Positions 5,125-44,234 of a stretch of DNA of 44,234 nucleotides are shown here, in pieces. This stretch comes from an uncultured bacterium (GTDB lineage: Bacteria > UBP6 > UBA1177), in NCBI GenBank assembly GCA_905233945.1, contig CAJOFY010000037.1:1-44234 (forward strand), written 5' to 3'. The translations under genes and the position numbers were made by a program. The first letter of the stretch is position 1; every line of letters starts with the position of its first letter. The notes under the pieces were generated by a model, which made no database searches, had not been told where the DNA came from, and saw only the letters and a list, made by a program, of their open reading frames with translations.

Positions 5125-6075
5125 CTACTTGAGATATTTATCTATTACGTAAATTTCATCTTGTGGCATTTCTACGCATTTTATGCCGAGAGCTTCAAAG
5201 AATGCTTTTTTGCTGTCGGGCATATCTTCGCTTTCGTAACCTTTTCTGTAAATATATATAACTTTTCTTGCTTCGAACTTTTCATGTTTTTCTTTTGCTA
5301 TTTTCTCATCTATTTGCTGCTGAATATATTTTTCTACCAGAAAAGCTCTCAAATCTATTTCGGCAGAGTCTAAGCCCAATCCCAAGATTATGAGGTCGTT
5401 ATCAAGGAAAATATCAGCCCACGATGAATTCCCGGTCCGATTGTTTTTCTGCCTTTCGGACAAGACTTTTTTCATCATTGCGATATTGTTTGCGTAATCC
5501 CAATTTGTCAGGCTGAAACTTTTGTCAAACGATTTCGTGTAATACAATCCATGAATATACCAGAGTGCGAATGTCGAATGAATATTGTTTCCATCAAAAT
5601 TCTTGTCGCAGAAGCAGAGATTCTTTAAATATTTACGGTTATAAACATTTTTTTCCCCTTGTTGATGCCATTTCATTTCTAAGCTTGCGTCAGATGTGAG
5701 AAAAATTTTCTCCAAATTGGTTGTCAGAATCGGAATATGCTTTTGCTTTGCGAACTCCAGCAATTTTTTATGGTTTTTAAGTTCAGATTCTTTGGCATCG
5801 GCTTCTATTTTATCCATTTCTTCTTTGAATTTTTCTTCGAATTTGTCTTTCCCCTGCTTCAGAAGAGCTATCTCTGCAATTTCAGGATATGTCAGACCTT
5901 TTAAGTTTTCTACGGTCAAGTCGCTTGATTCTGGTAATAATTTGCCCAATAAATCTTCCCAACTTAAATTGATTTTGTCAGCTTTATTTATCCCATTCCC
6001 GACCAAAAATGCCGGTTGATTTAATTTGATCGGATTTCCTTTTTCATCTTTCAAATTTGTCATTTTGATTGTCAT
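5125..6075 (-). CDS. SIR2-like domain protein, stand-alone
   Basis: 316 residues from ATG 6075; GGAGAGG lies just upstream, and the farther ATG at 6087 overlaps that ribosome site, so it is unlikely to be used. SIR2-type signatures appear in order: FLVGNGIN (about 23-30) with SWEDLL, then PILTTNLE (115-122), the catalytic-type WYIHG (172-176) and LIILGLGLDSAEIDLRAFL (228-246). Such SIR2_2-like proteins are NADases in several anti-phage systems, where NAD depletion aborts infection. The usual N-Y-D after TT is N-L-E here, a divergence at a site that normally contacts NAD. No Argonaute, HerA or TIR partner is adjacent; the flanks are a yhcG fragment and a lipoprotein. A defence role is inferred from the family and the island setting. 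Confidence 0.7.
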   Translation of the reverse strand: MTIKMTNLKDEKGNPIKLNQPAFLVGNGINKADKINLSWEDLLGKLLPESSDLTVENLKGLTYPEIAEIALLKQGKDKFEEKFKEEMDKIEADAKESELKNHKKLLEFAKQKHIPILTTNLEKIFLTSDASLEMKWHQQGEKNVYNRKYLKNLCFCDKNFDGNNIHSTFALWYIHGLYYTKSFDKSFSLTNWDYANNIAMMKKVLSERQKNNRTGNSSWADIFLDNDLIILGLGLDSAEIDLRAFLVEKYIQQQIDEKIAKEKHEKFEARKVIYIYRKGYESEDMPDSKKAFFEALGIKCVEMPQDEIYVIDKYLK

Positions 6076-6103
6076 TTTCCTCTCCATAAAACAGTTAAAA
6101 AAA

Positions 6104-7858
6104 TTATTCCGCGTTTCTCACACAACGGACTTTGTTGATTAATCCGGCACCTTTGTTGATCACGGAGCCGTTGCTGAAATTCACATACCACACGTAGGTC
6201 GAATTACTTGATAGAATAGAAGAAGACCAAAATGATTCGGTATCGCCAAATTTGCTATGACCTCCGTTGGAATCACTGGAACATGATTCGCAAGCACTGT
6301 TAGTACTGCAACTGCTTGCAAGGCAAACATTACCTTCGTCACTGCGAACGAGGCAGACATCACTTCCGCTTGGCGGCATCTGCGTACCTGGACAATTCTG
6401 AATAAGAGTGCGGAGTTCGCTGATTGTCGGCAGATGCCAACCGCTGCTGAAACCACCGTAATTCGACGAATTTAAACCCGTGCAATGCGATTTTGCATTC
6501 GACCATGTTATCAAGCTTGAGTTTGCTTTTTCTGACCAGATATACTTGCTAGATGAATCCTGACAAGGGAAGGATGTAGTTGATGCATTACATTCGGGAA
6601 GCGTTGACGAGCCGCCGCTTGTGCATGAACCGTTAGTCCAATTGAACCCTGACGCACATTTGTATTGACAGACACCGGCTGTTGTGCTGTAACTTGAGGT
6701 CTGACTTGCAGGTGTCCAACCGTTTGAACTGCTCCATGTCTGTGTGTATGTGCCGTTTGCGCCGTTGTCGTTCCACACGGTGTTTGCAGGTTTCGACGGG
6801 CAGTTTACAGTTTTTTGATTTATGCAACTGCTGTTTTCCCAAGTGTGGGACGAGTCACATTTGTATTTACAAACACCGGCTGTTGTGCTGTAACTTGAGG
6901 TCTGACTTGCAGGTATCCAGCCGCTTGAACTGGTCCATGTCTGTGTATATGTGCCGTTTGCACCGTTGTCATTCCACTCTGTGTTTGCAGGTTTTGAGGG
7001 ACAGTCGGCAGTTTTTGTGCATTCATCTGAATCCCATGTTCCGCCGGCTTCGGAGCATTCTTCTTCGGCTGTCATTATGCACAGATTTACGCTCCACTCA
7101 TAACCTGATTGACATCCGCATATATAGCCGGTGCCGCTGACAGTGCAGTTGCCAGTCGAATTTGAGATGCTTGTGCACGGATTTGGGCTGCACGGTGTTG
7201 TGGGTTTTACGCATTGGTTTCCAATCCATTCGTAGCCTTGATTGCACTTGAATCCGCATTCGTTTGCGACAGCCGTTTCGCTGTAAAAGCCGGTCGTCAG
7301 AGGATACCAGTCGTTTCCGTCAAAGGTCTGGGTTATGCTTGAACCGTTGTGCCAGCTTGCATTTGCGGGCAGGCCGCTGCATGTTGCGGTTCTTGTTGTC
7401 GGTTCTTCGTCCGGCTCATTATCATCTTCATCCGGTGCGGAAGAGTCGCCGTCATCTGTGGTGTCAGTGTCATCCGGCTCAGAATCATCTGAATCATCGG
7501 TAGAATCAGATGTGTCGGTGTCATCATCCGGTGTTGAGTCACTGTTGTCCGGTGCGGAATCCGAATCATCGGTATCCGTATCATCCGGCTCGGAATCACC
7601 GTTGTCTGGCTGTTCCGGTGTGGAGTCTGGATTGTCGGGTTCAGTGTCTTCCGGCTCGCTATCCGTTGGATCGGTGTCTTCCGCCTCATTGGAATCGGTG
7701 GGCTCATCAGAATCCGCATCCTGCATTTCTGCATCACTGTTGCCTTGGTTATTCGCATCAGGATTGTTTTCAAGCGGATTGTTGAACTTCAAGCCTGAAT
7801 CGCAGGAAAAGAGGATGAATGCTGAAACGAGCAATAAAATCAAAGAGTTGAATTTCAT
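6104..7858 (-). CDS. modular surface lipoprotein with DUF1566-like C-terminus
   Basis: 584 residues from ATG 7858 (GGAGG five bases upstream). A signal peptide with lipobox LFSC gives lipidation at Cys19. Residues about 35-165 are a low-complexity Asp/Ser/Glu/Pro/Thr stalk. Cys-rich modules of roughly 50-70 residues follow (GLPANASWHNGSSITQTFDG, SNSTGNCTVSGTGYICGC), including two nearly identical tandem units. The last ~150 residues (CQDSSSKYIWSEKANSSLIT, GGFSSGWHLPTISELRTLI, FWSSSILSSN, VRCVRNAE) match the DUF1566/Lcl_C fold found in surface proteins. It is probably displayed on the outer surface as an extended adhesin-like protein. A ligand cannot be read from the sequence. Confidence 0.75.
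   Translation of the reverse strand: MKFNSLILLLVSAFILFSCDSGLKFNNPLENNPDANNQGNSDAEMQDADSDEPTDSNEAEDTDPTDSEPEDTEPDNPDSTPEQPDNGDSEPDDTDTDDSDSAPDNSDSTPDDDTDTSDSTDDSDDSEPDDTDTTDDGDSSAPDEDDNEPDEEPTTRTATCSGLPANASWHNGSSITQTFDGNDWYPLTTGFYSETAVANECGFKCNQGYEWIGNQCVKPTTPCSPNPCTSISNSTGNCTVSGTGYICGCQSGYEWSVNLCIMTAEEECSEAGGTWDSDECTKTADCPSKPANTEWNDNGANGTYTQTWTSSSGWIPASQTSSYSTTAGVCKYKCDSSHTWENSSCINQKTVNCPSKPANTVWNDNGANGTYTQTWSSSNGWTPASQTSSYSTTAGVCQYKCASGFNWTNGSCTSGGSSTLPECNASTTSFPCQDSSSKYIWSEKANSSLITWSNAKSHCTGLNSSNYGGFSSGWHLPTISELRTLIQNCPGTQMPPSGSDVCLVRSDEGNVCLASSCSTNSACESCSSDSNGGHSKFGDTESFWSSSILSSNSTYVWYVNFSNGSVINKGAGLINKVRCVRNAE
6655..7012. repeat. tandem 200-bp module duplication in the lipoprotein gene
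   Basis: 6655-6810 and 6856-7012 are about 90 percent alike and code for two copies of the ANTxWNDNGANGTYTQTW module, offset by about 201 bp. This is a recent in-frame duplication and a likely site of copy-number variation. Confidence 0.75.
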
Positions 7859-23419: not shown

Positions 23420-23481
23420 TTGCCGCGCTTTCGACGTCACGTCGTTACGGCGTTTCGTCGTTACGGCGACACGCGCGGCAA
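23420..23481. repeat. inverted repeat enclosing a duplicated 13-mer
   Basis: TTGCCGCGC (23420-23428) and GCGCGGCAA (23473-23481) are perfect outer arms. Inside, CGTCGTTACGGCG occurs twice (23440-23452, 23456-23468). It sits just past the stop of the HATPase gene and before the hydrogenase promoter. It may act as that operon's terminator or be a small mobile palindrome; no clear U-run follows. Confidence 0.6.
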
Positions 23482-25188: not shown

Positions 25189-26685
25189 TCACTCGATTGT
25201 AGGCTTGTAGAAGTCAAAATGGATATATTTTTTGTCAACACTTTTGCGTACGGCCATTCCCGGGTCGGTTTTGATGTAGATTTTCAGCACGCCGTTGACT
25301 TTCTGCGGATAAATGTAGGTGACCTCCGCTTTGAAAGCCCTCGTGTCGATGATGTTAAGGAGATACTGCGGAATTTTTGCAAAATTGTGGACATCGATGA
25401 CAAATCCGCCTTTGATTTCCCTGAACTGATAGTCAACTTCGCCGTCGAGCTCCATTGTTACACGGCTGAACTCGGGGAATTTCCTGAAGAAAAGATTTTT
25501 GAGTCTCCCCTTTTTCGCAAGTTTTGTCACTGGAAGTTCAGGCAGTTTTTCTGCCAAAGTCGGCTCTTTTCCGGCTTTTGTCACCTTGAGCTGCTTTATT
25601 TCGCCGTCTTCCGCTTTCACAGCCTTGACCTGCTGCGCAGCAAGACGTTTTTCCTCAGCTATGCGCTTCTCTTCCTCGGCCTTTTGTAGCTCAGCAAGAC
25701 GTTTTTCCTCAGCCAAACGCTTTTCTTCGGCTATACGTCTTTCTTCTTCAGCTTTTTTAAGCTCAGCAATTCGTTTTTCCTCAGCCAAACGCTTTTCTTC
25801 GGCTATGCGTTTTTCTTCCTCGGCCTTTTGGAGCTCAGCAAGGCGTTTTTCCTCGGCGAGCCGCTTTTCTTCAGCTATGCGTCTTTCTTCCTCGGCTTTT
25901 TTAAGTTCCGCAATTCGTTTTTCCTCATCTTCGAGCTCTTTCATAAGAGCGCCGACGAGTTCTGCCTCTTTTTCCGCTTTGATCCGGCGCTTTTCCTCGG
26001 CTATCCGTCTTTCTTCCTCTGCTTTTTTAAGCTCCGCAATTCGTTTTTCCTCAGCTATCCGATTTTCTTCTGCTATCCGTCTTTCTTCTTCAGCTTTTTT
26101 AAGCTCCGCGAGACGTTTTTCTTCCGCTATCCGCTTTTCCTCGGCTATCCGTCTTTCTTCCTCGGCTTTTTTAAGCTCCGCAAGACGCTTTTCTTCGGCT
26201 ATGCGCTTTTCTTCCTCGGCTTTTTTGAGTTCCGCAATTCGTTTTTCCTCAGCTATCCGATTTTCTTCGATTTCCCGCTCTTTTTCAGCCTGTGCAAGAC
26301 GTTCCGCATCTCTTTTTTCCGCAAATTTCGCTATAATCGTGTCGAAATTGCCGTCATCGAGAAAAACCGAACGGCTGAACGCAATTACTATCGTCCCTTT
26401 GCGGTTGAAAAAAGTGTACTGAGCTCCTGGTTCAACAAAAAAGATAAAACGGGTCATTCCGCCTGAAACATTCTTTTCAACAGATTTTACTATTGCCGGA
26501 AGCGAAGGAAAATCAGCGTTGTCGAAAGAGCCGTTCGCCTCGAAAACTATTCTGTCAGGGTTGCTCAGACGATACGAGGAAAAAGTCGGATTTTCATCGG
26601 CGCTTTCCAGCATAACGTAAAAATTGTCGCTGTCCTCAAGTGTCTGCAACGAGAACAGAAAGAAAAATGCAAGAAAGAGAGTCAT
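25189..26685 (-). CDS. two-AMIN-domain envelope protein with long charged helical repeat
   Basis: 498 residues. A short hydrophobic N-terminus lacking basic residues may be a signal peptide. Residues about 20-110 look like an AMIN domain (NFYVMLESADENPTFSSYRL, RIVFEANGSF, GGMTRFIFFVEPGAQYTFFN), which binds peptidoglycan or envelope partners. Residues 130-345 are a Glu/Lys/Arg/Ala repeat of the type EEKRIAEEKRLAELKKAEE, which should form one long helix. A second AMIN-like domain closes the protein (SRVTMELDGEVDYQFREIKG, YIYPQKVNGVLKIYIKTDPG). The layout suggests a spacer spanning the periplasm. No ribosome site is obvious, so the start is less sure; it ends the long leftward cluster. Confidence 0.7.
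   Translation of the reverse strand: MTLFLAFFFLFSLQTLEDSDNFYVMLESADENPTFSSYRLSNPDRIVFEANGSFDNADFPSLPAIVKSVEKNVSGGMTRFIFFVEPGAQYTFFNRKGTIVIAFSRSVFLDDGNFDTIIAKFAEKRDAERLAQAEKEREIEENRIAEEKRIAELKKAEEEKRIAEEKRLAELKKAEEERRIAEEKRIAEEKRLAELKKAEEERRIAEENRIAEEKRIAELKKAEEERRIAEEKRRIKAEKEAELVGALMKELEDEEKRIAELKKAEEERRIAEEKRLAEEKRLAELQKAEEEKRIAEEKRLAEEKRIAELKKAEEERRIAEEKRLAEEKRLAELQKAEEEKRIAEEKRLAAQQVKAVKAEDGEIKQLKVTKAGKEPTLAEKLPELPVTKLAKKGRLKNLFFRKFPEFSRVTMELDGEVDYQFREIKGGFVIDVHNFAKIPQYLLNIIDTRAFKAEVTYIYPQKVNGVLKIYIKTDPGMAVRKSVDKKYIHFDFYKPTIE
25640..26280. repeat. tandem coding repeat for the charged helix
   Basis: Degenerate repeats of about 39-90 bp, rich in TTTTTCCTCAGC and CTTTCTTC, encode the EEKRIAELKKAEEERRIAEE motif over and over. 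Copies are nearly identical in places, so slippage and length variation are expected. Confidence 0.75.
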
Positions 26686-26712: not shown

Positions 26713-27486
26713 CTAATCGCCGGAATTGTTGGGAGTGTTCGTTGTATCCCATTCGACAATTTTGGCTGCAATGCATTTGCCGGATGGAATAAGTGTGAAA
26801 TCGGACATATGTTCATTTGTTTCGGCCTCTTTCAGAATAAGATTTCTTATGCGGCCGCTCGTTCTGTTTATACCGTCGACATCCTTGACTTCGGTTATCG
26901 TCAAAGTTCCGTGAGTCTGGAAATAGTACTCTTTTGCAGCCCCCAATTCTGCATCGACCCAGACCAAAACGCACTGTTCACAGTTCATATAAGTTTCGTT
27001 AAGACCTGTTCCGAGTTCGTAAGTTCCTTTCTGAATTTCACCCATCAGTAGAATTTTAATAATATCAATTGTGCTGTCGCCCAGTGACGGACTTAAATAA
27101 CCGTTTATCTCATCGGCGTAAGCACCACCCATTGTTATTTCGGGAACTTCTATCATCGTGCAGCCTTCAGCATTCTGCTCAAATTCAGGATCGCTTTCTG
27201 TGTCAGTGTTGTCATCAGCGGTATCTGTATCGTCTGCAGTATCTGTATCGTCCGGTGCCGAATCAGGATTTTCAGGTGTTGTATCATTATCTTCCGCCGG
27301 TTCAGAATCTGTCTGGTCATTGTCGTTTGCTGTGTCGCCGGTATCGCTGTCATCTTCGTCTGAAACAGCGTCTGCGCTGCTATCGGTCTCGTCTTCTTCA
27401 TTTGAACTGCCGCACGAAACAATGAAAAATACCGTTACAACCAGAGCAACAAAAATGAATCTTCCAATAAAATTGTTACTTTTCAT
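26713..27486 (-). CDS. lipoprotein with Asp/Thr/Ser stalk
   Basis: 257 residues. Signal peptide with lipobox FIVSC (Cys25). Residues 27-110 are an Asp/Thr/Ser/Glu/Pro stalk like that of the 6104-7858 lipoprotein. A folded domain of about 145 residues follows (CTMIEVPEITMGGAYADEIN, YLSPSLGDSTIDIIKILLMG, MNCEQCVLVWVDAELGAAKE), with four cysteines. No family recognised. The start overlaps the end of the ZnuA-like gene by 11 nt, so the two are translated together. Confidence 0.7.
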   Translation of the reverse strand: MKSNNFIGRFIFVALVVTVFFIVSCGSSNEEDETDSSADAVSDEDDSDTGDTANDNDQTDSEPAEDNDTTPENPDSAPDDTDTADDTDTADDNTDTESDPEFEQNAEGCTMIEVPEITMGGAYADEINGYLSPSLGDSTIDIIKILLMGEIQKGTYELGTGLNETYMNCEQCVLVWVDAELGAAKEYYFQTHGTLTITEVKDVDGINRTSGRIRNLILKEAETNEHMSDFTLIPSGKCIAAKIVEWDTTNTPNNSGD

Positions 27487-28792
27487 CGACCAAAGCTCCT
27501 TTTATTTCGTTAGCTGTTTTTTTGATATTTTCAAGAACATTTTCTGCAAGAGGGTCAAGAGTGATAACGCGGACTTTCGTTTCTTCAGCCACCGATTTTA
27601 TGACTGAATCGGGGATCTGAGCCTGCATAAATACGGCTTTCGCGTTGTTTTTCTTTATAAAATCTACAACTTTCGCCATGTCGACCGCGCCCGGCTCCTT
27701 TCCTTCGACTTCAAGCGGGAGCTGTTTGAGGCCGAATCTTTCCGCAAAGTATCCGAAAGCGGGGTGGTGAACTACGAAACTCTTTCCTTCAACATCTTTG
27801 AGCTGAGCTGCAACTTCGTCGTTGACCTTTTTGATCTCAGCTTTCAAAGCTTCGCCGTTTTCACGGTAGAATGCCGCATTGTCGGGATCTGCTGCCGAAA
27901 GTTCCGTAACAGTGTTGTCGGTCATAACGATAAGGTTCATAGGATCGAACCACACATGCGGATCATGCATTCCGTGGTGATGTCCGCAGCAGCCTTTTCC
28001 GTTGAGACAGTCGCATCCGCCATGTTTTTTGCAGCACTCTTTGTCGCCTTTGCAGGGACATTCCTTGCCGCCGCACTTAGGACAGCCTTTACCTTCTTTG
28101 CAGTCGCATCTCTTGCCGTCTTTGCATCCGCATCCGCACTTTTCACAGCCTTCGCAGCCTTTTTCACCGTGATGCTCTTTGTGGTGCGGACAACCTTCGT
28201 GCATCCCTTCGTGGTGATGATGCTCATGTTTCGGTTCTTCCGCTTTCGGAGCGTCGAATCCCGGAAGCGCACACGCATCTTCGCCGCATTCTTCTTTTTC
28301 AAGTTTTTCACCGTGCTTGCATCCGCATTCCCTGCCTTCCTTGCATCCGCATTTGCAGTCTGCACATGCTTCGGCACAGCCTTTGTCGCAGTGATGATGA
28401 GGATGAAAATGTCCTTCCATTTTGCGGAAATTTATTCCTTTCGCCATATCGGCAAAACGGATGTTTTTGTAGTCAGCGTCGAAGGGGACTCCGATTTTGA
28501 GGTAAAGTGCGGAATCTTTGAGGTCAGCCATCTTTTTCGGGCCCGGTTCATAAGTTTCAGGCGTGCTTGACGGCTCCATCATCGTGTTTACTCTGACTTT
28601 GTCCTTGCCGACCGTTTTGACTATGAAAGCCTGCGGCGGAATACTGACAGTTACATTGAGAATGTCCCGTTTTTTTGCCGCGGTACTGGCCTCGCTACTG
28701 GCTGCGCTGTCCTTGGAAGCGGTTTTTTCACCGCAGGAAACCAGCACAAAAAGAGCCAGAAACAGAACAAAAATTTTCATGATTTTTTTCAT
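27476..28792 (-). CDS. ZnuA-like zinc/manganese-binding lipoprotein with a metallothionein-like insert
   Basis: 438 residues. Lipobox LVSC (Cys20). The fold is that of cluster A-I metal-binding proteins of ABC importers: LNVTVSIPPQAFIVKTVG, SSTPETYEPGPKKMADLKDS (Glu where many members have the first metal His), HDPHVWFDPMNLIVM, VHHPAFGYFAERFGL and ITLDPLAENV. Between about 128 and 276, where ZnuA proteins carry a His-rich loop, there are about 150 residues with roughly 28 Cys and over 20 His, in words such as CADCKCGCKEGRECGCKHG, EGCEKCGCGCKDGKRCDC and KECCKKHGGCDC. It looks like a built-in metal store or sensor. No ABC permease or ATPase gene is next to it; it is 21 bp from mrp. Confidence 0.85.
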   Translation of the reverse strand: MKKIMKIFVLFLALFVLVSCGEKTASKDSAASSEASTAAKKRDILNVTVSIPPQAFIVKTVGKDKVRVNTMMEPSSTPETYEPGPKKMADLKDSALYLKIGVPFDADYKNIRFADMAKGINFRKMEGHFHPHHHCDKGCAEACADCKCGCKEGRECGCKHGEKLEKEECGEDACALPGFDAPKAEEPKHEHHHHEGMHEGCPHHKEHHGEKGCEGCEKCGCGCKDGKRCDCKEGKGCPKCGGKECPCKGDKECCKKHGGCDCLNGKGCCGHHHGMHDPHVWFDPMNLIVMTDNTVTELSAADPDNAAFYRENGEALKAEIKKVNDEVAAQLKDVEGKSFVVHHPAFGYFAERFGLKQLPLEVEGKEPGAVDMAKVVDFIKKNNAKAVFMQAQIPDSVIKSVAEETKVRVITLDPLAENVLENIKKTANEIKGALVDEK

Positions 28793-28813: not shown

Positions 28814-29695
28814 TTAAACCTCGCAAATATCCATGATCTGCCTTGTGACAGATTCAAACTCTTTTGCTGCCGGATTGCTGTCGGCCGCGTAGACAAAAGG
28901 AAGTCCGCAGTCGCCCGATTCGCCGATAGCCGGATCGAACGGGATTTTCCCGAGCAGTTTGATGTTGTATTTTTCTGCGATCTGCGTTCCTGCACCGGTT
29001 TTAAAAATCTGCGTGACTTTGCCGCAGTGAGGGCAGATAAAACCGCTCATGTTCTCGACTATTCCGAGAATTTTTATGTGCGCTTTTTCGCAGAAGTTGA
29101 CCGATTTTCTGACATCGGCAGCGGCGACTTCCTGAGGAGTCGTGACTAAAACCGCGCCGGTGAGATCGTCAACCGTGTTGATGAGCGAAAGAAGCTCGTC
29201 GCCTGTTCCGGGAGGCGAATCGATTACGAGATAATCAAGGGTTCCCCAGTCGACATCCTTGAAAAACTGCTGGATCATTCCGTGCTTTATCGGGCCTCTC
29301 CAGATTATCGCGTCGTCGGAATCCTGAAGGAAAAAGCCGACTGACATTATTTTGAGCGCGCCGAAAGTAACCGGCACAAGCTTATTGTTTTCATTGACAT
29401 TGATTTTGCCGTCCTTCATGCCGAACATAGTCGGAATGCTCGGTCCGTGCAGGTCGATATCGAGAAGACCGGTAGTTTTGCCTTCCAAAGCGAGCTTCAT
29501 CGCCAGGTTTACCGCGACAGAACTTTTGCCGACACCGCCCTTGCCCGACATGACAAGGATTTTGTTTTTGATTTTACAGAGATTTTTCTTTATCTCCTGT
29601 CTTGCAAGAAACTGCTCGTCGTTTTCATTTGCCATTTTCTTTTTAGCGCTGCATGTCGTGCTCGTGCAGCCTTCGCAGGAAGAGTGGTCAGTCAT
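28814..29695 (-). CDS. mrp: Mrp/NBP35-type iron-sulfur carrier ATPase
   Basis: 293 residues from ATG 29695 (GGAGGT upstream). Deviant Walker A SGKGGVGKSSVAVNLA, switch LLDIDLHGPSIPTMFG, YLVIDSPPGTGDELLSL, and the C-terminal CPHCG motif that holds a bridging 4Fe-4S cluster between two subunits. An extra N-terminal Cys cluster (CEGCTSTTC) resembles the Nbp35/Ind1 group. Role: assembly and transfer of Fe-S clusters, useful here for the many clusters of the hydrogenase. It precedes the ZnuA-like gene by 21 bp. Confidence 0.92.
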   Translation of the reverse strand: MTDHSSCEGCTSTTCSAKKKMANENDEQFLARQEIKKNLCKIKNKILVMSGKGGVGKSSVAVNLAMKLALEGKTTGLLDIDLHGPSIPTMFGMKDGKINVNENNKLVPVTFGALKIMSVGFFLQDSDDAIIWRGPIKHGMIQQFFKDVDWGTLDYLVIDSPPGTGDELLSLINTVDDLTGAVLVTTPQEVAAADVRKSVNFCEKAHIKILGIVENMSGFICPHCGKVTQIFKTGAGTQIAEKYNIKLLGKIPFDPAIGESGDCGLPFVYAADSNPAAKEFESVTRQIMDICEV

Positions 29696-29773
29696 TTTCA
29701 CCTCCAATCAACTAAAAACGGGCAATAATAAGGATTATTTCAGATTTTACAACTACTTTGACAAAAATATTTA

Positions 29774-36604: not shown

Positions 36605-36950
36605 CTAATACCAATACGGATCCACATTAGTCTGAGGGAATCCAGATTGTTGAAATTTTTCGTATGTTGTCGAATCATATCCGTATTCTGTACCTGGAAC
36701 AAAGGGATTGCGGTAAATCATGGGCTTACCAGAACCGTTATTGCCATCAAACAAGATAGTTTTTAATGGGTCTTTGTTCACATAGTACGGATTTTTGTAA
36801 ATCATTATTGCACCATTGGGACCAGTACTATTATCAATGAAAACTGGAGGTTGTTCATTTTCACCGCGCTTCAGCATTTTAGCCAAAATATTATTCATTA
36901 AGACTTTTTGTATGGCATCTGAAGTGTCTTCATAAGGATCTGAAGGATAC
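36605..36950 (-). repeat. conserved tail repeat of Rhs (tail 2)
   Basis: Codes for about 112 residues alike in both Rhs proteins and in part in the orphan tails at 35214 and 35914. Markers are YVNKDPLKTILFDGNNGSG and MIYRNPFVPG. Its stop is followed after 9 bp by the next gene's ATG. Confidence 0.75.
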
Positions 36951-39091
36951 TTTTCTGTAAAAGAGGCACCTTCAGGTGTTTGCGTACAATCTCCTTGGCA
37001 TTTTATTATTGTTCCATCAGGTCCAACGGTTACTTTATCACCGTTGGCAAGAGTATATGTTCGAGAACCATCAGAATTTTGAACCATGTGAATCCAATTA
37101 ACAACTCTCGAAAAATCAGCAGTAGCACCGTCTTCGGGATCTGCACTGGCTTGTATTCCTGTTTGTGGAGCTGCAGTTTTTACCCCACTCTTGTTATGTT
37201 GTTCTACGTCGCTGTTTGATGGTTTTTCAGCTGTTCGCCAGCCGACATGAACAACATGGCCAATAGCTCCTTCTGAAGGGCCTTTCTGAATCCCATTTTC
37301 TCCCACTATGGGAGGATATTTTCCTTTCATGTTAGCCTTATCTTCTACAATTATCTGAAAACGTTTACTCCCGACAAATCCGTTGCCATATCTTTCATTT
37401 AGCTTATCTCTTAAAATTCTTGCAAAATTTAATTTTATTTGAGTCGGATTTGCTACATTTCTAAAATTGACATCAACAGCTCCACCCCAATTATGCGCAG
37501 AACCATCATTTCTGTCTCTTTTCCCTGAAGATATTGGAGCTTCTTCCTGAGAATTTGTTGCTTCCATATATGCTTCATCAACAAGCTCTTCCAAATCTTT
37601 TGTTTTTTGTAATAATCCTTCCAATTTCGCATTATCTATTGCTCTCCACAGCCCCGTCGGATCGTTCGCTTCAATAACCATTCCGGCGACATAGGCGAAG
37701 CCGTTGCCGAGGTTATTGGCATCTCCCCAGATTCCTATTGGGTCTTGATTGATGAAACGGTGCATATCGATGTGGTAATAACGGTTGCGCATCCAGTAGA
37801 GATTGGTTTCGGGTTCATAGAGTGAGCCGCCCCACAAGAACGGCGAGATCGCAGCCGTGGTTTTCGGGGTGAAGTCTGCGTTCAGGACTTCGTGTTCTCC
37901 GTAAACGCGGTAACGGTAACGCTCGTATATCGTGCCGTTTCCGTCGGATATTGCGATGACGTTGCCGCGCTCGTCTTTGTGGAACCAGATTCTCTGAAGG
38001 GTCGATTCGTTGGGCGAGCAGTTGCCGTTGCCGTCGTCACTGCATGAAACGGTGTCCATTATGATGTGGTTGTCGGTGCCGTGATCGACATATCTGCGGA
38101 GTTCCCATGCTGTTGTGGTGACCGGATTATCCGAGGTGCGGAGTGTCTTGATTTCTTCGCTGATGATGTCCCAGCCGTCGTAGGCATATTTGTGTGTTCT
38201 TTCGAATGTGTTGTTGTTTTCAGTGTAGTAAACGGTTTTCTCGGTACGCCTGTTGAACGGATCATAGCTGTATTCGACAAGATAATCACTGTTTGCAACG
38301 CTGGTCAGGCGGTTAAGTTTGTCGTAGGTGTAAACGATGTCCGCATTCTGGTCACCGTCAAGGTCTTCACCGGTCATGTTGTTGTTCGAATCGTAGGTGT
38401 ATTTTACCGTGTTGCTGCCGTCTGATTTCTGCGTGAGTCTGTTGAATCCGTCAACTGTCCATGCAAAATTCGTCTGGTTTTCATAACTCGATCTGATGTT
38501 GTGGACACCGTCAAGCTGGAAGTCCTCACAATCGGTTTCAGACTGGTTGCATTTGAAGACATTGTTCCTGTTGTTTGCGCAGGTAGGATCGCTTGAATTG
38601 TAGGCACAGTCGTAATCAACTCTTCTCAGGCGGTAGTATGAGTCATACTGATAGGCAGTTCTGCGGTTTTCCTCGTTTTCCTGCTTTCCGATAAGGTGAA
38701 GCCCTTTGGAATAGGTATATTCATAATCTGCGACAGTAGGAGTATTCAGCGATGTGAAATCCTCTTTTCTGCGGCTTACCTTGCGCCAGTCATTGTAGGT
38801 GTAGGAAAGCTCTGCTGCATGGTTGTTGCTCGAATCAAAATTCTTGTGGATCGAGCTCAGGACATTTCCTGTGCCGTAATTGTATTGAAGCAGCTTTGTT
38901 CCGTCGTATTCAAGAGCTTTCGGAAGTCCGCTGAAAGCTGTTTCAACGATGTTTTTACCGGTCGGAAGCGTGGTTGTTTCAGTCATCACTTTGGTTGAAG
39001 AGTTCCACGAAATCGCGCTTGATACCGTGCCTGAATCAAAGGTTTCGGATTTTATGCTGCCGAAGGAATCTTGCATAAAGAATATACCCAT
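36605..39091 (-). CDS. 5'-truncated Rhs protein with M15-peptidase-like toxin and conserved tail
   Basis: 828 residues. After MGIFFMQ it joins the Rhs core at DSFGSIKSETFDSGT. It keeps about 470 residues of YD-repeat core nearly identical to the neighbouring Rhs, up to the DPTGL end-of-core motif. The toxin region (about residues 480-713) has RNDGSAHNWGGAVDVNF and GHVVHVGW, a His/Asp...His pattern like the SxHxxGxAxD and HxH zinc motifs of M15 peptidoglycan peptidases. A linker with two cysteines leads into the conserved tail (YPSDPYEDTSDAIQKVLMNN onward, 36605-36950). It lacks the front of a full Rhs, so it is probably a silent or reserve tip that must recombine with the full-length gene, though a weak start exists. 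Confidence 0.75.
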   Translation of the reverse strand: MGIFFMQDSFGSIKSETFDSGTVSSAISWNSSTKVMTETTTLPTGKNIVETAFSGLPKALEYDGTKLLQYNYGTGNVLSSIHKNFDSSNNHAAELSYTYNDWRKVSRRKEDFTSLNTPTVADYEYTYSKGLHLIGKQENEENRRTAYQYDSYYRLRRVDYDCAYNSSDPTCANNRNNVFKCNQSETDCEDFQLDGVHNIRSSYENQTNFAWTVDGFNRLTQKSDGSNTVKYTYDSNNNMTGEDLDGDQNADIVYTYDKLNRLTSVANSDYLVEYSYDPFNRRTEKTVYYTENNNTFERTHKYAYDGWDIISEEIKTLRTSDNPVTTTAWELRRYVDHGTDNHIIMDTVSCSDDGNGNCSPNESTLQRIWFHKDERGNVIAISDGNGTIYERYRYRVYGEHEVLNADFTPKTTAAISPFLWGGSLYEPETNLYWMRNRYYHIDMHRFINQDPIGIWGDANNLGNGFAYVAGMVIEANDPTGLWRAIDNAKLEGLLQKTKDLEELVDEAYMEATNSQEEAPISSGKRDRNDGSAHNWGGAVDVNFRNVANPTQIKLNFARILRDKLNERYGNGFVGSKRFQIIVEDKANMKGKYPPIVGENGIQKGPSEGAIGHVVHVGWRTAEKPSNSDVEQHNKSGVKTAAPQTGIQASADPEDGATADFSRVVNWIHMVQNSDGSRTYTLANGDKVTVGPDGTIIKCQGDCTQTPEGASFTEKYPSDPYEDTSDAIQKVLMNNILAKMLKRGENEQPPVFIDNSTGPNGAIMIYKNPYYVNKDPLKTILFDGNNGSGKPMIYRNPFVPGTEYGYDSTTYEKFQQSGFPQTNVDPYWY
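37655..39070 (-). repeat. 1.4-kb Rhs core repeat
   Basis: Nearly identical to 41517-42934 and in the same orientation. It ends abruptly at GCCGAAGGAATC (39070 and 42934), beyond which the two sequences differ. This is long enough for RecA-dependent exchange. Confidence 0.8.
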
Positions 39092-39109
39092 TGAGTGTTT
39101 TCCTTACTT

Positions 39110-40471
39110 TTACATCAAAAATATTTCCGAAATGCAGACATCGTCCGATTTTTCGCCTTTAACAGTTGATTTTATTATTATTTTTATCCAACAATCATTA
39201 GGCAGAGGCATACCTTCGCGTTCAAGATCAAGTATCGTCTTGTTGGTTTCACCGAGTGGATCCTTTTGGATTCTGTCATTCCATACAGGAATATCAGGTT
39301 TAAAATTTTTCTTTGAATCTTCTTGCAGCATTCTGGCATAGTCTTCACACATTGATGAGCACCCGCCTTTGTTTTTACATCTTGTTGTAACATCAAATTC
39401 CGTCACTTTGCCGTTGGCATCGTAAACTGCTTTATTTTTCAGATAGCCGTTCATAACCGAGATATATCCGACTACCGGCATTGGATCAAGCGAGATTTCA
39501 ACAAACTCTTCCTTATCCCTTTTTTTGAAGCACCAGGCTGTTGAAAGATCTCCGTCAAACAGCTTCCTTGCATCGTATCCTTTGAGTGACGATGAAACCT
39601 CAACTTTTGTACCTAATCCCCAAAAATCACCATACATATCGTTAAACCCTTTGCGGTTTTTCTTAAAATATTCAAACATTTCCGAATTTTTGATGTCGTA
39701 CTCAATCGAAAGCGACGGATTCTTGCCGAAATCAAAGTTTTTGCCTGAATATTTGTAGATTTTGTCTTTTTCATTGAAAACTGCGGGGGAGATTTTAACG
39801 ATTTTCCCGCCGATAGAATCAACTTTCTGAGCATCAATCACTATTTCTATTTCGTCTGCTTTTCCCATTCCGAAATACTGTGCAGGTGAAAAATCATACT
39901 GCAGCTTCCTGTTATTCAAAACCGGAATCGAGCTGTCGCTATAAAGGAAATGTAATGCATAAGCGTTCACTGTATATTTTATTGAGACTTTTGTTTCGTG
40001 ATTTTTCGGGAACAGAATTTTGGTAACATACCATCTTTTTATAAAATAATCGCTCATTTCAGGAGGAATAATCGGGTGGCAGGATTTCTCGTTCGGATTA
40101 CAGTCATAGAATTTTTCTATAGTATATTCTGGATATGTCTCGACACCGTTCATTAAAATTGAAAAATTTGTTATGTCTTTATGCAGAGGATCTTGTCTGG
40201 CATCAAAAATATCGACTTCGAAATCTATAGGAAAAGCAAAATCAATGGTTTCGTCTTTCCCCTTGTTGAAATAGATGTAATTGACCTCAATATCAGCGGA
40301 AACGCCGTTTATTTTTATAAAAAGGCTCTCTTTTTTGATTTCGATATCTGATTTTTCCAAGGCAACCAGATTACCTGTCGATTTTAGAGAAGAAAGAATA
40401 TCTATAGGCCCGGCATTCCCAAAAGCACAGAAAGAAAAAAGTAAAATGATTGAAAATACTAAGTTTTTCAT
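39110..40471 (-). CDS. exported DUF4424-like protein with C-terminal discoidin-like domain, candidate immunity
   Basis: 453 residues with a signal peptide (MKNLVFSIILLFSFCAFGNA). The N-terminal ~250 residues resemble DUF4424 proteins (LEKSDIEIKKESLFIKINGV, IEVNYIYFNKGKDETIDFAF). The C-terminal third carries ARKLFDGDLSTAWCFKKRDK and ISLDPMPVVGYISVMNGYLK, typical of F5/8-type or NADase-associated glycan-binding domains. It begins 9 bp after the stop of the full-length Rhs, the same spacing as the other toxin-immunity pair, with GGGGGA before ATG. Candidate immunity protein for the YkuD-like toxin, or a periplasmic shield that binds cell-wall glycan; the size is large for an immunity protein. 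Confidence 0.6.
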   Translation of the reverse strand: MKNLVFSIILLFSFCAFGNAGPIDILSSLKSTGNLVALEKSDIEIKKESLFIKINGVSADIEVNYIYFNKGKDETIDFAFPIDFEVDIFDARQDPLHKDITNFSILMNGVETYPEYTIEKFYDCNPNEKSCHPIIPPEMSDYFIKRWYVTKILFPKNHETKVSIKYTVNAYALHFLYSDSSIPVLNNRKLQYDFSPAQYFGMGKADEIEIVIDAQKVDSIGGKIVKISPAVFNEKDKIYKYSGKNFDFGKNPSLSIEYDIKNSEMFEYFKKNRKGFNDMYGDFWGLGTKVEVSSSLKGYDARKLFDGDLSTAWCFKKRDKEEFVEISLDPMPVVGYISVMNGYLKNKAVYDANGKVTEFDVTTRCKNKGGCSSMCEDYARMLQEDSKKNFKPDIPVWNDRIQKDPLGETNKTILDLEREGMPLPNDCWIKIIIKSTVKGEKSDDVCISEIFLM

Positions 40472-40480
40472 TTTATCCCC

Positions 40481-40825
40481 CTAATACCAATAAGGATCAA
40501 CATTGGTTTGCGGAAACCCAGCTTGTTGAAATTTTTCATAAGTCGTTGAATTATATCCATATTCAGCACCAGGAACAAACGGATTCCTGTAAATCATTGG
40601 TCGTCCCGAACCATTATTTCCATCAAACAAGATAGTTTTTAAAGGATCTTTGTTTACATAATATGGATTACGGTAAATCATTATTGCTCCGTTTGGTCCG
40701 GTGCTGGTATCAATGAAAACTGGAGGCTGTTCAGGTTCTCCACGCTTCAGCATTTTCGCCAAAATGTTGTTCATTAGAATCTTTTGAATGGCGTTTGAAG
40801 GGTCTTCATTAGGATCTGAAGGATA
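40481..40825 (-). repeat. conserved tail repeat of Rhs (tail 1)
   Basis: Counterpart of 36605-36950. Both begin at YPSDP and end in VDPYWY-stop. DNA identity is high although the toxin DNA just upstream is unrelated. Confidence 0.75.
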
Positions 40826-43800
40826 GTTAGAATTTTGATTTTCCATATTTTTTACTCTCATTTTTTCACATCCCGGACCAGCACACCATTCAATTTTTCC
40901 ACTTTTACCATGGTACACACGCGTGTTGTCAGACCAAAATTCAACATAACTTCCATCTGGATTCGGAAAAACTTTTTTTATATAATCTTCGCTGTCTCCC
41001 GGCAAAACTATTGCATTTGTTGAGGGTTGAATATTTTCATCTTTTTTTTCGTCCTTTTTCTCGTCTCTTTTAGGGTCAATATGAATGGCGATATTAGAAT
41101 CATTGCCTATAAAGCTAATAAATTCCCTCATTGTTTTGTTTGTGTCACCGACGACATATATTCTATCTTCTTTGGATACTGGATTTTTATTTGCAATTTC
41201 TTTTCCTATTAAAAAGCATCCATGCCCACTTCCAGCTAACTCGCCACTATGAATTTGTCTGCCCGTACTATCGGCTACTATCCTCAAATGTTTTATAGGA
41301 TATTTATGTTTATCTCCTTCAAATGCGTGAGTTTGCCAAAATCCAAACCCGTGAACATTTTCTGCAAATGGAGGCTGATTATAATATCTTACCGATTCAT
41401 AGACTATGGCGGAAAAGGGCTCTTCTTCGCCATCTTTAACAGCAATCAATGTGCCGAAACGCCCGCCATCTTTTGTATATTTTTCATCTCTAATTATTGT
41501 TATCCTTACCTCCAGCCCACTCGGATCACTCGCTTCGATTACCATTCCGGCAACATAAGCAAAACCGTTGCCTAAGTTGTTGGCATCGCCCCAGATGCCG
41601 ATTGGGTCCTGGTTGATGAAGCGGTGCATATCGATGTGATAGTAACGGTTTCGCATCCAGTAGAGATTGGTTTCGGGTTCATAGAGTGAACCGCCCCACA
41701 AGAACGGCGATACTGCCGCTGTTGTTTTCGGTGTAAAGTCGGCGTTCAGAACTTCGTGTTCGCCGTAGACACGGTAGCGGTAACGCTCGTATATTGTTCC
41801 GTTGCCGTCTGATATTGCGATAATGTTGCCGCGCTCATCCTTGTGGAACCAGATTCTCTGAAGGGTCGATTCGTTTGGCGAACAGTTGCCGTTTCCGTCG
41901 TCACTGCATGAAACAGTGTCCATTATGATGTGGTTGTCGGTGCCTTGATCGACGTATCTGCGGATTTCCCATGCTGTTGTGGTGACCGGATTATCCGATG
42001 TGCGGAGTGTCTTGATTTCTTCGCTGATGATATCCCAGTCGTTGTAAGCATATTTGTGGGTTCTTTCGAATGTGTTGCTGTTTTCGGTGTAGTAAACGGT
42101 TTTCTCGGTACGCCTGTTGAACGGGTCATAGCTGTATTCGACGAGATAATCGGAGTTCGTGACGCTTGTCAGGCGGTTAAGTTTGTCGTAAGTATAGACA
42201 ATTTCCGGATTGTTGTCGCCGTCAAGGTCTTCTCCGGTCATGTTGTTGTTCGAATCGTAGGTGTATTTGACTGTATTGCTGCCGTCTGATTTCTGCGTGA
42301 GTCTGTTGAATCCGTCAACTGTCCACGCAAAAGTGGTCTGGTTTTCATAACTCGATCTGATGTTGTGAACTCCGTCAAGCTGGAAGTCCTCGCAGCCGCT
42401 TTCAGCCGCATTGCACTTGAAGACATTGTTCCTGTCCTCTATGCAGGTAGGGTCGTTTGCGTTGTATGCGCAGTTGTAATCGACCCTTCTCAGTCTGTAA
42501 TAAGAATCATACTGATAGGCCGTCCTGCGGTTTTCTGTGTTTTCCTGCTTTCCGATAAGGTGAAGCCCTTTTGAATATGTGTATTCGTAATCCGCAACGG
42601 TCGGTGCGTTCTGTGCCGTGAATTCCTCTTTTCTGCGGCTGACTTTGCGCCAGTTGTTGTAGGTGTAGGAAAGCTCCGCTGCATGGTTATTGTTTGCATC
42701 AAAATTCTTGTGGATCGAGCTCAGGACATTTCCGGTGCCGTAATTGTATTGAAGCAGCTTTGTTCCGTCGTATTCAAGAGCTTTCGGAAGTCCCTTGAGA
42801 GTCGTTTCGACAATGTTTTTACCGGTCGGAAGCGTGATAGTTTCAGTCATCACTTTTGTGGTCGGATTCCACGCGATAGCGCTTGAAACTGTGCCGGAAT
42901 CAAAGGTTTCGGATTTTATGCTGCCGAAGGAATCGTAGGTTCTGGTTACTTCCGAAAGTGTGGATGACGTATTTGTCGGATCAACGCTTTTTGCAGTTTC
43001 GAGAAGATTTCTGTTGTTATAAGTAAAAGTCTGATAAACATCATTTGCTGTAGTTCCAGTGTATTTCTGCGAAATCCTGCCGTAATTATCGCGGCCGTAG
43101 TTTACTGTCAGAGAAACATTATCCTGCTCGTAAGTTTCACTGACAAGGTCGCGCAGGCTGTTGTAAGTGTAGGTGACCTCACGCGGAGATGCACAGTTAG
43201 GATCATCGCTTCCGCAGTATTTTTCGGTTGCGGGGAGATTGTTCACCGTGTAGGTGTAATGCGTTTTTGCGCCGTTGTCATCGGCTTTTTTAGTGTTTCT
43301 GCCAAAAATATCATAAGTATAATTTGTGGTTATCCAGCCGTCGGAATTGTAAAGCTGCGTTTCTTTATAACCGCCGCCGCTGCCGTTTGCAGTCATTCTT
43401 CTTGCCGTTTTGACAACTTCACCGAAAGCATTGTAGCTGTAAACAGTCTCATTACCTACGATAAGATCAATATTTAAGAACGGGAGTAAGTTCGTGATTC
43501 CATCGCTCTCCGTATCGGCACTCCATACCACCTGACCGCCTGTGTTATAAAGTTGATAAGAACATTTTGTGTCGGTAAAAGTGCATGAAGATGTAAGACA
43601 GTCCTGCGTTTCAAGAACATTTGCAGAGCTGACGCATGTGGCTGTAACTCTGCCCATCCTGTCATATTCGTATTCCGTAACAGTGGTTTTTGCCGAAGTC
43701 CAGTTCTGAACAGCAGATACTCTGCCGGTTGTGTCGTAGGCAGTTCTTTCCGAAGAAACCAAAAGATTGTCAGCATCATAGTTTTTAACTTCGACAACGC

Positions 43801-44234
43801 GGTTCAAATGGTCGTATCTATTCACTGTCTCCCTTCCGAAACTGTCGGAAACACTGACAACACTGCCTGTAACAGAATCGTAGGAATACGATTTTTCAAG
43901 AACCATCTCTTTTGCGGCAATTCCGTTGATTGATGTTGCAGTCGCATTGGATGTATTAGATGCAGGATCAAAAAGCACTTTTTTAACATTAGAAATCCTG
44001 CCTAAATCGTCATATTCGTAGGCATCAAAACTTGTCAAAGTTGTGCCGTTGTATGTTTTTGAATAATCCGTCAGCCATGTCGTGCTGTTGTAATGCGGTT
44101 CGGTTTCATTCCCGAACGGATCGACGCTTTTCGCAGCTCTGCCCCATCTGTCTTTGTAGGTCGTGAGAGGAAGAATGTTTTCATATTTGTTTCTGATCGA
44201 GTCGGAACCGAAATAACCGCCTGAAGCGCTGCTG
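40481..44234 (-). CDS. Rhs/YD-repeat protein with YkuD/DUF5675-like toxin and conserved tail (5' end outside window)
   Basis: At least 1250 residues; the frame is open to the right edge. YD repeats run throughout (EYDDLGRISNVKK, YDRMGRVTATC, YTYDKLNRLTSV), ending in the Rhs hallmark RYYHIDMHRFINQDPIGIWG and SDPSGL. The variable toxin (about 41516-40826) has GRFGTLIAVKDGEEEPFSAI, then IHSGELAGSGHGCFLIG. The His plus SGHGC pattern is that of YkuD L,D-transpeptidases and DUF5675 proteins, which act on peptidoglycan with a catalytic Cys. A Lys/Asp linker and a Cys-containing hinge precede the conserved tail (40481-40825). Exported by an unknown route; no secretion genes are in view. Confidence 0.85.
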   Translation of the reverse strand, partial: SSASGGYFGSDSIRNKYENILPLTTYKDRWGRAAKSVDPFGNETEPHYNSTTWLTDYSKTYNGTTLTSFDAYEYDDLGRISNVKKVLFDPASNTSNATATSINGIAAKEMVLEKSYSYDSVTGSVVSVSDSFGRETVNRYDHLNRVVEVKNYDADNLLVSSERTAYDTTGRVSAVQNWTSAKTTVTEYEYDRMGRVTATCVSSANVLETQDCLTSSCTFTDTKCSYQLYNTGGQVVWSADTESDGITNLLPFLNIDLIVGNETVYSYNAFGEVVKTARRMTANGSGGGYKETQLYNSDGWITTNYTYDIFGRNTKKADDNGAKTHYTYTVNNLPATEKYCGSDDPNCASPREVTYTYNSLRDLVSETYEQDNVSLTVNYGRDNYGRISQKYTGTTANDVYQTFTYNNRNLLETAKSVDPTNTSSTLSEVTRTYDSFGSIKSETFDSGTVSSAIAWNPTTKVMTETITLPTGKNIVETTLKGLPKALEYDGTKLLQYNYGTGNVLSSIHKNFDANNNHAAELSYTYNNWRKVSRRKEEFTAQNAPTVADYEYTYSKGLHLIGKQENTENRRTAYQYDSYYRLRRVDYNCAYNANDPTCIEDRNNVFKCNAAESGCEDFQLDGVHNIRSSYENQTTFAWTVDGFNRLTQKSDGSNTVKYTYDSNNNMTGEDLDGDNNPEIVYTYDKLNRLTSVTNSDYLVEYSYDPFNRRTEKTVYYTENSNTFERTHKYAYNDWDIISEEIKTLRTSDNPVTTTAWEIRRYVDQGTDNHIIMDTVSCSDDGNGNCSPNESTLQRIWFHKDERGNIIAISDGNGTIYERYRYRVYGEHEVLNADFTPKTTAAVSPFLWGGSLYEPETNLYWMRNRYYHIDMHRFINQDPIGIWGDANNLGNGFAYVAGMVIEASDPSGLEVRITIIRDEKYTKDGGRFGTLIAVKDGEEEPFSAIVYESVRYYNQPPFAENVHGFGFWQTHAFEGDKHKYPIKHLRIVADSTGRQIHSGELAGSGHGCFLIGKEIANKNPVSKEDRIYVVGDTNKTMREFISFIGNDSNIAIHIDPKRDEKKDEKKDENIQPSTNAIVLPGDSEDYIKKVFPNPDGSYVEFWSDNTRVYHGKSGKIEWCAGPGCEKMRVKNMENQNSNYPSDPNEDPSNAIQKILMNNILAKMLKRGEPEQPPVFIDTSTGPNGAIMIYRNPYYVNKDPLKTILFDGNNGSGRPMIYRNPFVPGAEYGYNSTTYEKFQQAGFPQTNVDPYWY
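41517..42934 (-). repeat. 1.4-kb Rhs core repeat (second copy)
   Basis: Matches 37655-39070 in the same orientation and frame; the copies are separated by about 3.9 kb. Confidence 0.8.

Follow-up and report, generated by a model that had tools for sequence, protein, structure and literature searches.

The window analysed here, positions 1-44,234 of contig CAJOFY010000037.1 of an uncultured bacterium, encodes a ZnuA-type metal-binding lipoprotein of 438 amino acids (aa) whose two lobes are separated by a 149-aa insert holding 28 cysteines and 20 histidines (gene znuA, 27476..28792, minus strand). On balance we favor the reading that this protein is the zinc substrate-binding protein (SBP) of a ZnuCB importer encoded elsewhere in the genome, and that its loop has turned into a metallothionein-like zinc buffer. 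This reading draws on features of the sequence: the protein family, the position of the insert, its restriction to one clade, its repeats, purifying selection on its cysteines, and the unlinked znuCB genes. The genome containing the window (G000; 2.65 Mb, 99.7% complete) belongs to a genus of candidate phylum UBP6 from the ruminant gut.

A ZnuA-type lipoprotein with a cysteine- and histidine-rich insert

Lipobox, N lobe, insert and C lobe are all covered by the single open frame of znuA. The product matches PF01297 over both lobes (aa 47-423, E 6.9e-60, 203 bits versus a curated cut-off of 29, profile positions 1-253 of 263), and its closest solved relative is the zinc ZnuA of the cyanobacterium Synechocystis (1PQ4, E 1.9e-41), which aligns in two stretches. 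The gap between these stretches (query 134 to 276, chain 100 to 130) corresponds to the position of the His-rich loop, between the lobes and before the DPHxW motif, and is filled by the insert (aa 126-274; 27971..28417, minus strand), the limits of which were set by the flanking RKM and MHDPH. An initial annotation, made from the letters of the window, had described a metallothionein-like insert in a ZnuA-type protein at 27970-28420; position and description hold, the latter in terms of composition, and so does its count of roughly 28 Cys, while "over 20 His" was slightly high (20 in the insert, 24 in the whole protein).

Cysteine makes up 19% of the insert (20 TGC and 8 TGT codons), and the sole Cys outside it is that of the lipobox (Cys20, LVSC-G; 28733..28735, minus strand), which is invariant in an alignment of 11 proteins. 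Taking the 28 other open reading frames of the window as a baseline (1.8% Cys, 1.5% His), the binomial probability of such an enrichment is ~1e-20 for Cys and ~1e-13 for His. The very high Cys content and the abundance of CxC, CxxC and CC motifs (8, 4 and 2, respectively, in G000, and up to 24 CxC in G003) correspond to a metallothionein composition. The inserts have a mosaic structure made of three modules, A (GCADCKCGCKEGKECGCHHGDKGCCGGDK), B (GCEGCEKCxCGCKDGKGCDCKEGK) and C (GCPKCGGKECPCKGDKECCKKHGGCDCLNGKGC), which in G003 are arranged as a 159-bp tandem repeat. Their size ranges from 149 to 284 aa, with 27 to 70 Cys, over the species that bear them, and copy number differs widely between close species; the insert in the window is among the shortest, its exact copy number being uncertain because short-read assembly may have collapsed repeats.

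Two predicted metal ligands, placed by the 1PQ4 alignment and invariant in the 11 proteins, are found on the C-terminal side: His279 (DPHVW; 27956..27958, minus strand), just past the insert, and His343 in the C lobe (VVHHP; 27764..27766, minus strand). The N-lobe ligand His of 1PQ4 (DPHTYEP), in contrast, aligns to Glu79 (STPETYEP; 28556..28558, minus strand), and the three-His ligand set of group II ZnuA proteins is thus incomplete, although a structural comparison of ZnuA proteins describes this His as absolutely conserved (PMC8900738). An equivalent of Glu79 is present across the genus and in the family members G015-G018, which have no insert, and the N-lobe His is also missing in PF01297 proteins from outside the phylum (L011, L027, L029). 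Judged by these motifs, the znuA product is a PF01297 family member standing outside the strict three-His ZnuA group. By analogy with S. enterica ZnuA, where one ligand comes from a loop His (PMC8900738), a Cys or His of the loop may serve as site ligand in the window protein. Shortly before the insert, near aa 104-107 (~28472-28483), the window ZnuA also misses 8 residues (VPFD-ADYKN versus VPFEAASIEKLAADYKN) that nearly all congeners carry.

Distribution of the insert and selection on its cysteines

The insert is present in 12 of the 14 same-genus species that have znuA, in proteins of 438-581 aa where full length (in G007 the gene is divided between two contigs). The two others, G004 and G010, have 29-aa His-rich loops, and the loops in other genera are of ordinary length (14-41 aa). 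A search of 290 genomes with the insert sequence, along the lines that the initial annotation had proposed, matched solely those 12 genomes and solely inside znuA; the insert was not found in any of the 278 others. A scan of 386 genomes for a DNA pattern encoding CxC shortly before DPHxW, which is not exhaustive as 8 insert-bearing genomes of the genus escaped it, gave hits in four genomes from inside and four from outside the genus, the latter being an SBP without Cys-rich loop (L119) and three chance matches. With the loop left out, a protein tree splits insert-bearing from insert-lacking sequences with a support of 1.000, consistent with a single origin of the insert. Two circumstances had been named as capable of overturning the original observation. 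One of them, relatives without the insert, does exist; the other, a frame artefact or assembly chimera, is ruled out by the in-frame insert in 11 other species, on separately assembled contigs, and the insert evolves under purifying selection.

Over the first 58 aa of the insert, which are orthologous across the ten species compared, the ratio of nonsynonymous to synonymous differences (pN/pS) is 0.136, to be compared with 0.124 in the C lobe and 0.231 in the N lobe. Pairwise sums over the ten species give 48 synonymous and 0 nonsynonymous differences at Cys codons. Among type-A units (n=35), on which the unit-level count rests, Cys occupies 208 of 210 Cys cells, and both TGC and TGT are used at every Cys position. 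Both the substitution and the unit counts add up related sequences and serve as description, not as a formal test. The pattern nevertheless indicates that the Cys content of the insert is maintained by purifying selection, and speaks against a neutral expansion of cysteines.

Transport partner, proposed function and alternatives

G000 encodes exactly one PF01297 protein, and no ZIP transporter was found in it. A znuC-znuB pair lies at position 17871 of contig C4 and adjoining, without an SBP gene, so that both the ABC-3 permease and the ATPase of a cognate ATP-binding cassette (ABC) transporter are present in the genome. Throughout the genus, the two insert-lacking species among them, the pair is unlinked from znuA, whereas znuA, znuC and znuB stand next to one another in the family's other genera (G015-G018) and in further members of the order (G019-G021). 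In this genus znuA has thus left znuCB behind and lies with mrp and a lipoprotein gene, whether or not it carries the insert. The initial annotation had reasoned from the lack of ABC neighbours that the protein serves another system; the single PF01297 protein, the ZnuC-ZnuB pair, the lack of a detected ZIP and the gene order in the other genera all speak against this, and ZnuCB is the likely transport partner as far as gene content and order can tell.

The redox setting is relevant for an exported, thiol-rich protein. The window encodes an [FeFe]-hydrogenase, in an operon, with an NADH-binding partner subunit, and neither DsbB nor VKOR was found in G000 or 11 congeners, in agreement with the anaerobic setting initially assumed. 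Reduced thiols in the exported insert are therefore plausible, a view tempered by a triple-DsbA lipoprotein in G000 (644 aa, tandem DsbA-like domains with CPFS, CPFC and CPYC; L124 1474-3408, contig C35 ~5257-6972). The accompanying statement that oxidation would be a threat to such a store needs qualifying in both directions, given this lipoprotein and the existence of exported Cys-rich Cu(I) stores (NGO1701/Csp1, PMC12510493).

The loop is known from other ZnuA proteins to bind Zn, and it can contribute a site ligand (PMC8900738, PMC4542158). We propose that in this genus Cys modules were duplicated and shuffled, so that a flexible His-rich loop would have grown into a metallothionein-like domain, whose thiolates and histidines, under the reducing, sulfide-rich conditions of the gut, would bind several Zn(II) tightly. 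Kept in reserve where the binding cleft opens, the bound ions would be passed to the Glu79/His279/His343 site and then delivered to ZnuB. One exported protein would thus probably both store zinc and pass it to the importer; the parts of this scheme that we infer are the relay, the thiol state, and the identity and stoichiometry of the metal. Somewhat short of an even chance is what we would give to the bolder formulation of an SBP with its own metallothionein, that is, an exported, membrane-anchored thiolate store for zinc or Cu(I), with an intramolecular relay to the transport site and a capacity tunable by copy number. If true, this would be an importer that stores and delivers its metal within one molecule, peculiar to a strictly reducing niche in the gut.

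Several observations weigh against the proposed zinc buffer. No Pfam or NCBIfam family matches the G000 or G003 insert up to E 10, and neither a metallothionein family nor a solved chain does, so that metal binding rests on composition and conservation; the likeness to metallothioneins is compositional, and we do not claim membership. AlphaFold2 modelling with the 11-protein alignment gave no confident structure (mean predicted local distance difference test score 40.3, predicted template modelling score 0.36). A Fur-family regulator (PF01475) was not found in G000, and since this genome is nearly complete, its metal regulation probably uses other proteins. Compared by eye, the regions upstream of mrp, the gene preceding znuA, and of znuC showed no shared operator; neither result supports co-regulation of mrp-znuA and znuCB. 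The His-rich loop of ZrgA, from a different zinc SBP family, is non-essential (PMC9820375). Finally, metals other than Zn, notably Cu(I), may be the cargo.

Among the alternatives, a detoxification sponge, in which the insert mainly sequesters excess or toxic soft metals (Cu(I), Cd(II), Zn(II)) within the envelope, with the ZnuA part as a mere carrier, is the strongest, albeit unlikely. The 27-70 cysteines far exceed what the loading of one site needs, and exported Cys-rich Cu(I) stores are known, such as NGO1701 with 15 Cu(I) per monomer (PMC12510493). Yet both SBP lobes are constrained (pN/pS 0.23 and 0.12) with invariant ligand positions, uptake has probably been retained given a single PF01297 protein and one clear ZnuCB, and no metal-resistance gene was seen among the identified neighbours. 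Less probable still is a regulatory gate, whereby, at high zinc supply, the metal-filled loop would block delivery and lower uptake, a role already proposed for its Synechocystis ZnuA counterpart. A regulatory role of the His-rich loop was put forward by Wei et al. (2007), as cited in PMC4542158, and the lack of a detected Fur/Zur-family regulator in G000 leaves room for control at the protein level, but few ligands suffice for gating, and repeat growth to 70 Cys indicates capacity.

We attach very little weight to neutral growth, in which slippage in a repeat-rich genome would have enlarged a dispensable loop. Copy number is indeed very variable among close species, other repeat arrays lie nearby, and the number of copies may itself be nearly neutral; the purifying selection on the insert, the lack of any Cys replacement in the orthologous segment and the use of both codons at every unit position nonetheless lead us to reject a neutral expansion of the Cys content. 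Equally hard to credit, or slightly more so, is metal delivery to iron-sulfur (Fe-S) cluster maturation through the neighbouring mrp (28814..29707, minus strand), 21 bp upstream of znuA, which encodes a NUBPL/ApbC-type P-loop Fe-S carrier (PF10609, E 9.7e-101; supported by synteny) and to which the initial annotation had tentatively linked the protein. The order mrp-znuA-lipoprotein is kept across the genus, but equally so in G004 and G010, and mrp-znuA linkage was not seen outside the genus, being missing in G015-G018. As linkage to mrp extends to species without insert, it leaves the insert unexplained, and we reject this function; moreover, ZnuCB is present in the genome, and from knowledge of the families we take Mrp to be cytoplasmic and the ZnuA-type lipoprotein to be exported.

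Compared with known systems, the window protein shares with the ZnuA of Synechocystis (1PQ4) and E. coli the family, the two lobes, the DPHxW and HP(S/A) motifs and a variable, metal-ligand-rich loop in the same position, but differs by its Glu in place of the N-lobe His and by its separation from znuCB. Bacterial (BmtA/SmtA) and eukaryotic metallothioneins are characterized by Cys-x-Cys and Cys-x-x-Cys clusters, few hydrophobic residues and repeat modules. The insert resembles them in all three respects, but it shows no detectable homology to them and is embedded in an exported transport protein, whereas they are small, free and cytosolic. Csp1/NGO1701 are likewise exported, Cys-rich multi-metal stores (PMC12510493), storage by the insert being a prediction, but form four-helix bundles, in contrast to a CxC repeat with His of no known family. 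ZrgA/PA4063 and AztC-AztD, too, are zinc proteins of the envelope that have flexible His-rich segments or rely on a partner to transfer Zn to the SBP (PMC9820375, PMC6689063); however, the fold of ZrgA and PA4063 is unrelated to cluster A-I SBPs, and the Zn donor of Azt is a separate protein, while the presumed donor studied here is built into the SBP. In the literature searched, we found no described zinc SBP with a Cys-rich or metallothionein-like segment. The role that the flexible loop plays in zinc-binding proteins has been called "enigmatic" (PMC9820375) and "poorly defined" (PMC4542158). Here the loop is enlarged several-fold in one clade, while two congeners kept a normal loop in the same neighbourhood, and such natural pairs with and without insert are well suited to testing its role in metal storage, delivery or gating. 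The insert also bears on how anaerobes can maintain thiol metal stores outside the cytoplasm.

Neighbouring genes and repeats

The lipoprotein gene that follows znuA, overlapping its end by 11 bp (26713..27486, minus strand), is a genus-conserved neighbour whose D/S/T-rich product matches no Pfam family over the cut-off. Lipoproteins whose linkers are acidic and D/S/T-rich adjoin both znuA (this gene) and znuB (L043 2323-3690), and those on the two sides carry a similar CxxCV...YYFA...GxLT motif; judged by this motif, they look like one expanded family. Another genus-conserved neighbour of znuA (25189-26685) encodes a 498-aa protein with long AEEKRIAELKKAEEERRIAEEKR repeats of 72-bp period, whose relatives vary between 428 and 534 aa where complete. 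Short CGTAACGG/CGTTACGT-type repeats form intergenic arrays at 23435-23465 and, in L049, L055 and L056, upstream of mrp, and thus occur in several species of the genus. Farther away, the window encodes large RHS-repeat proteins of 828 and 1185 aa (36605-44038).
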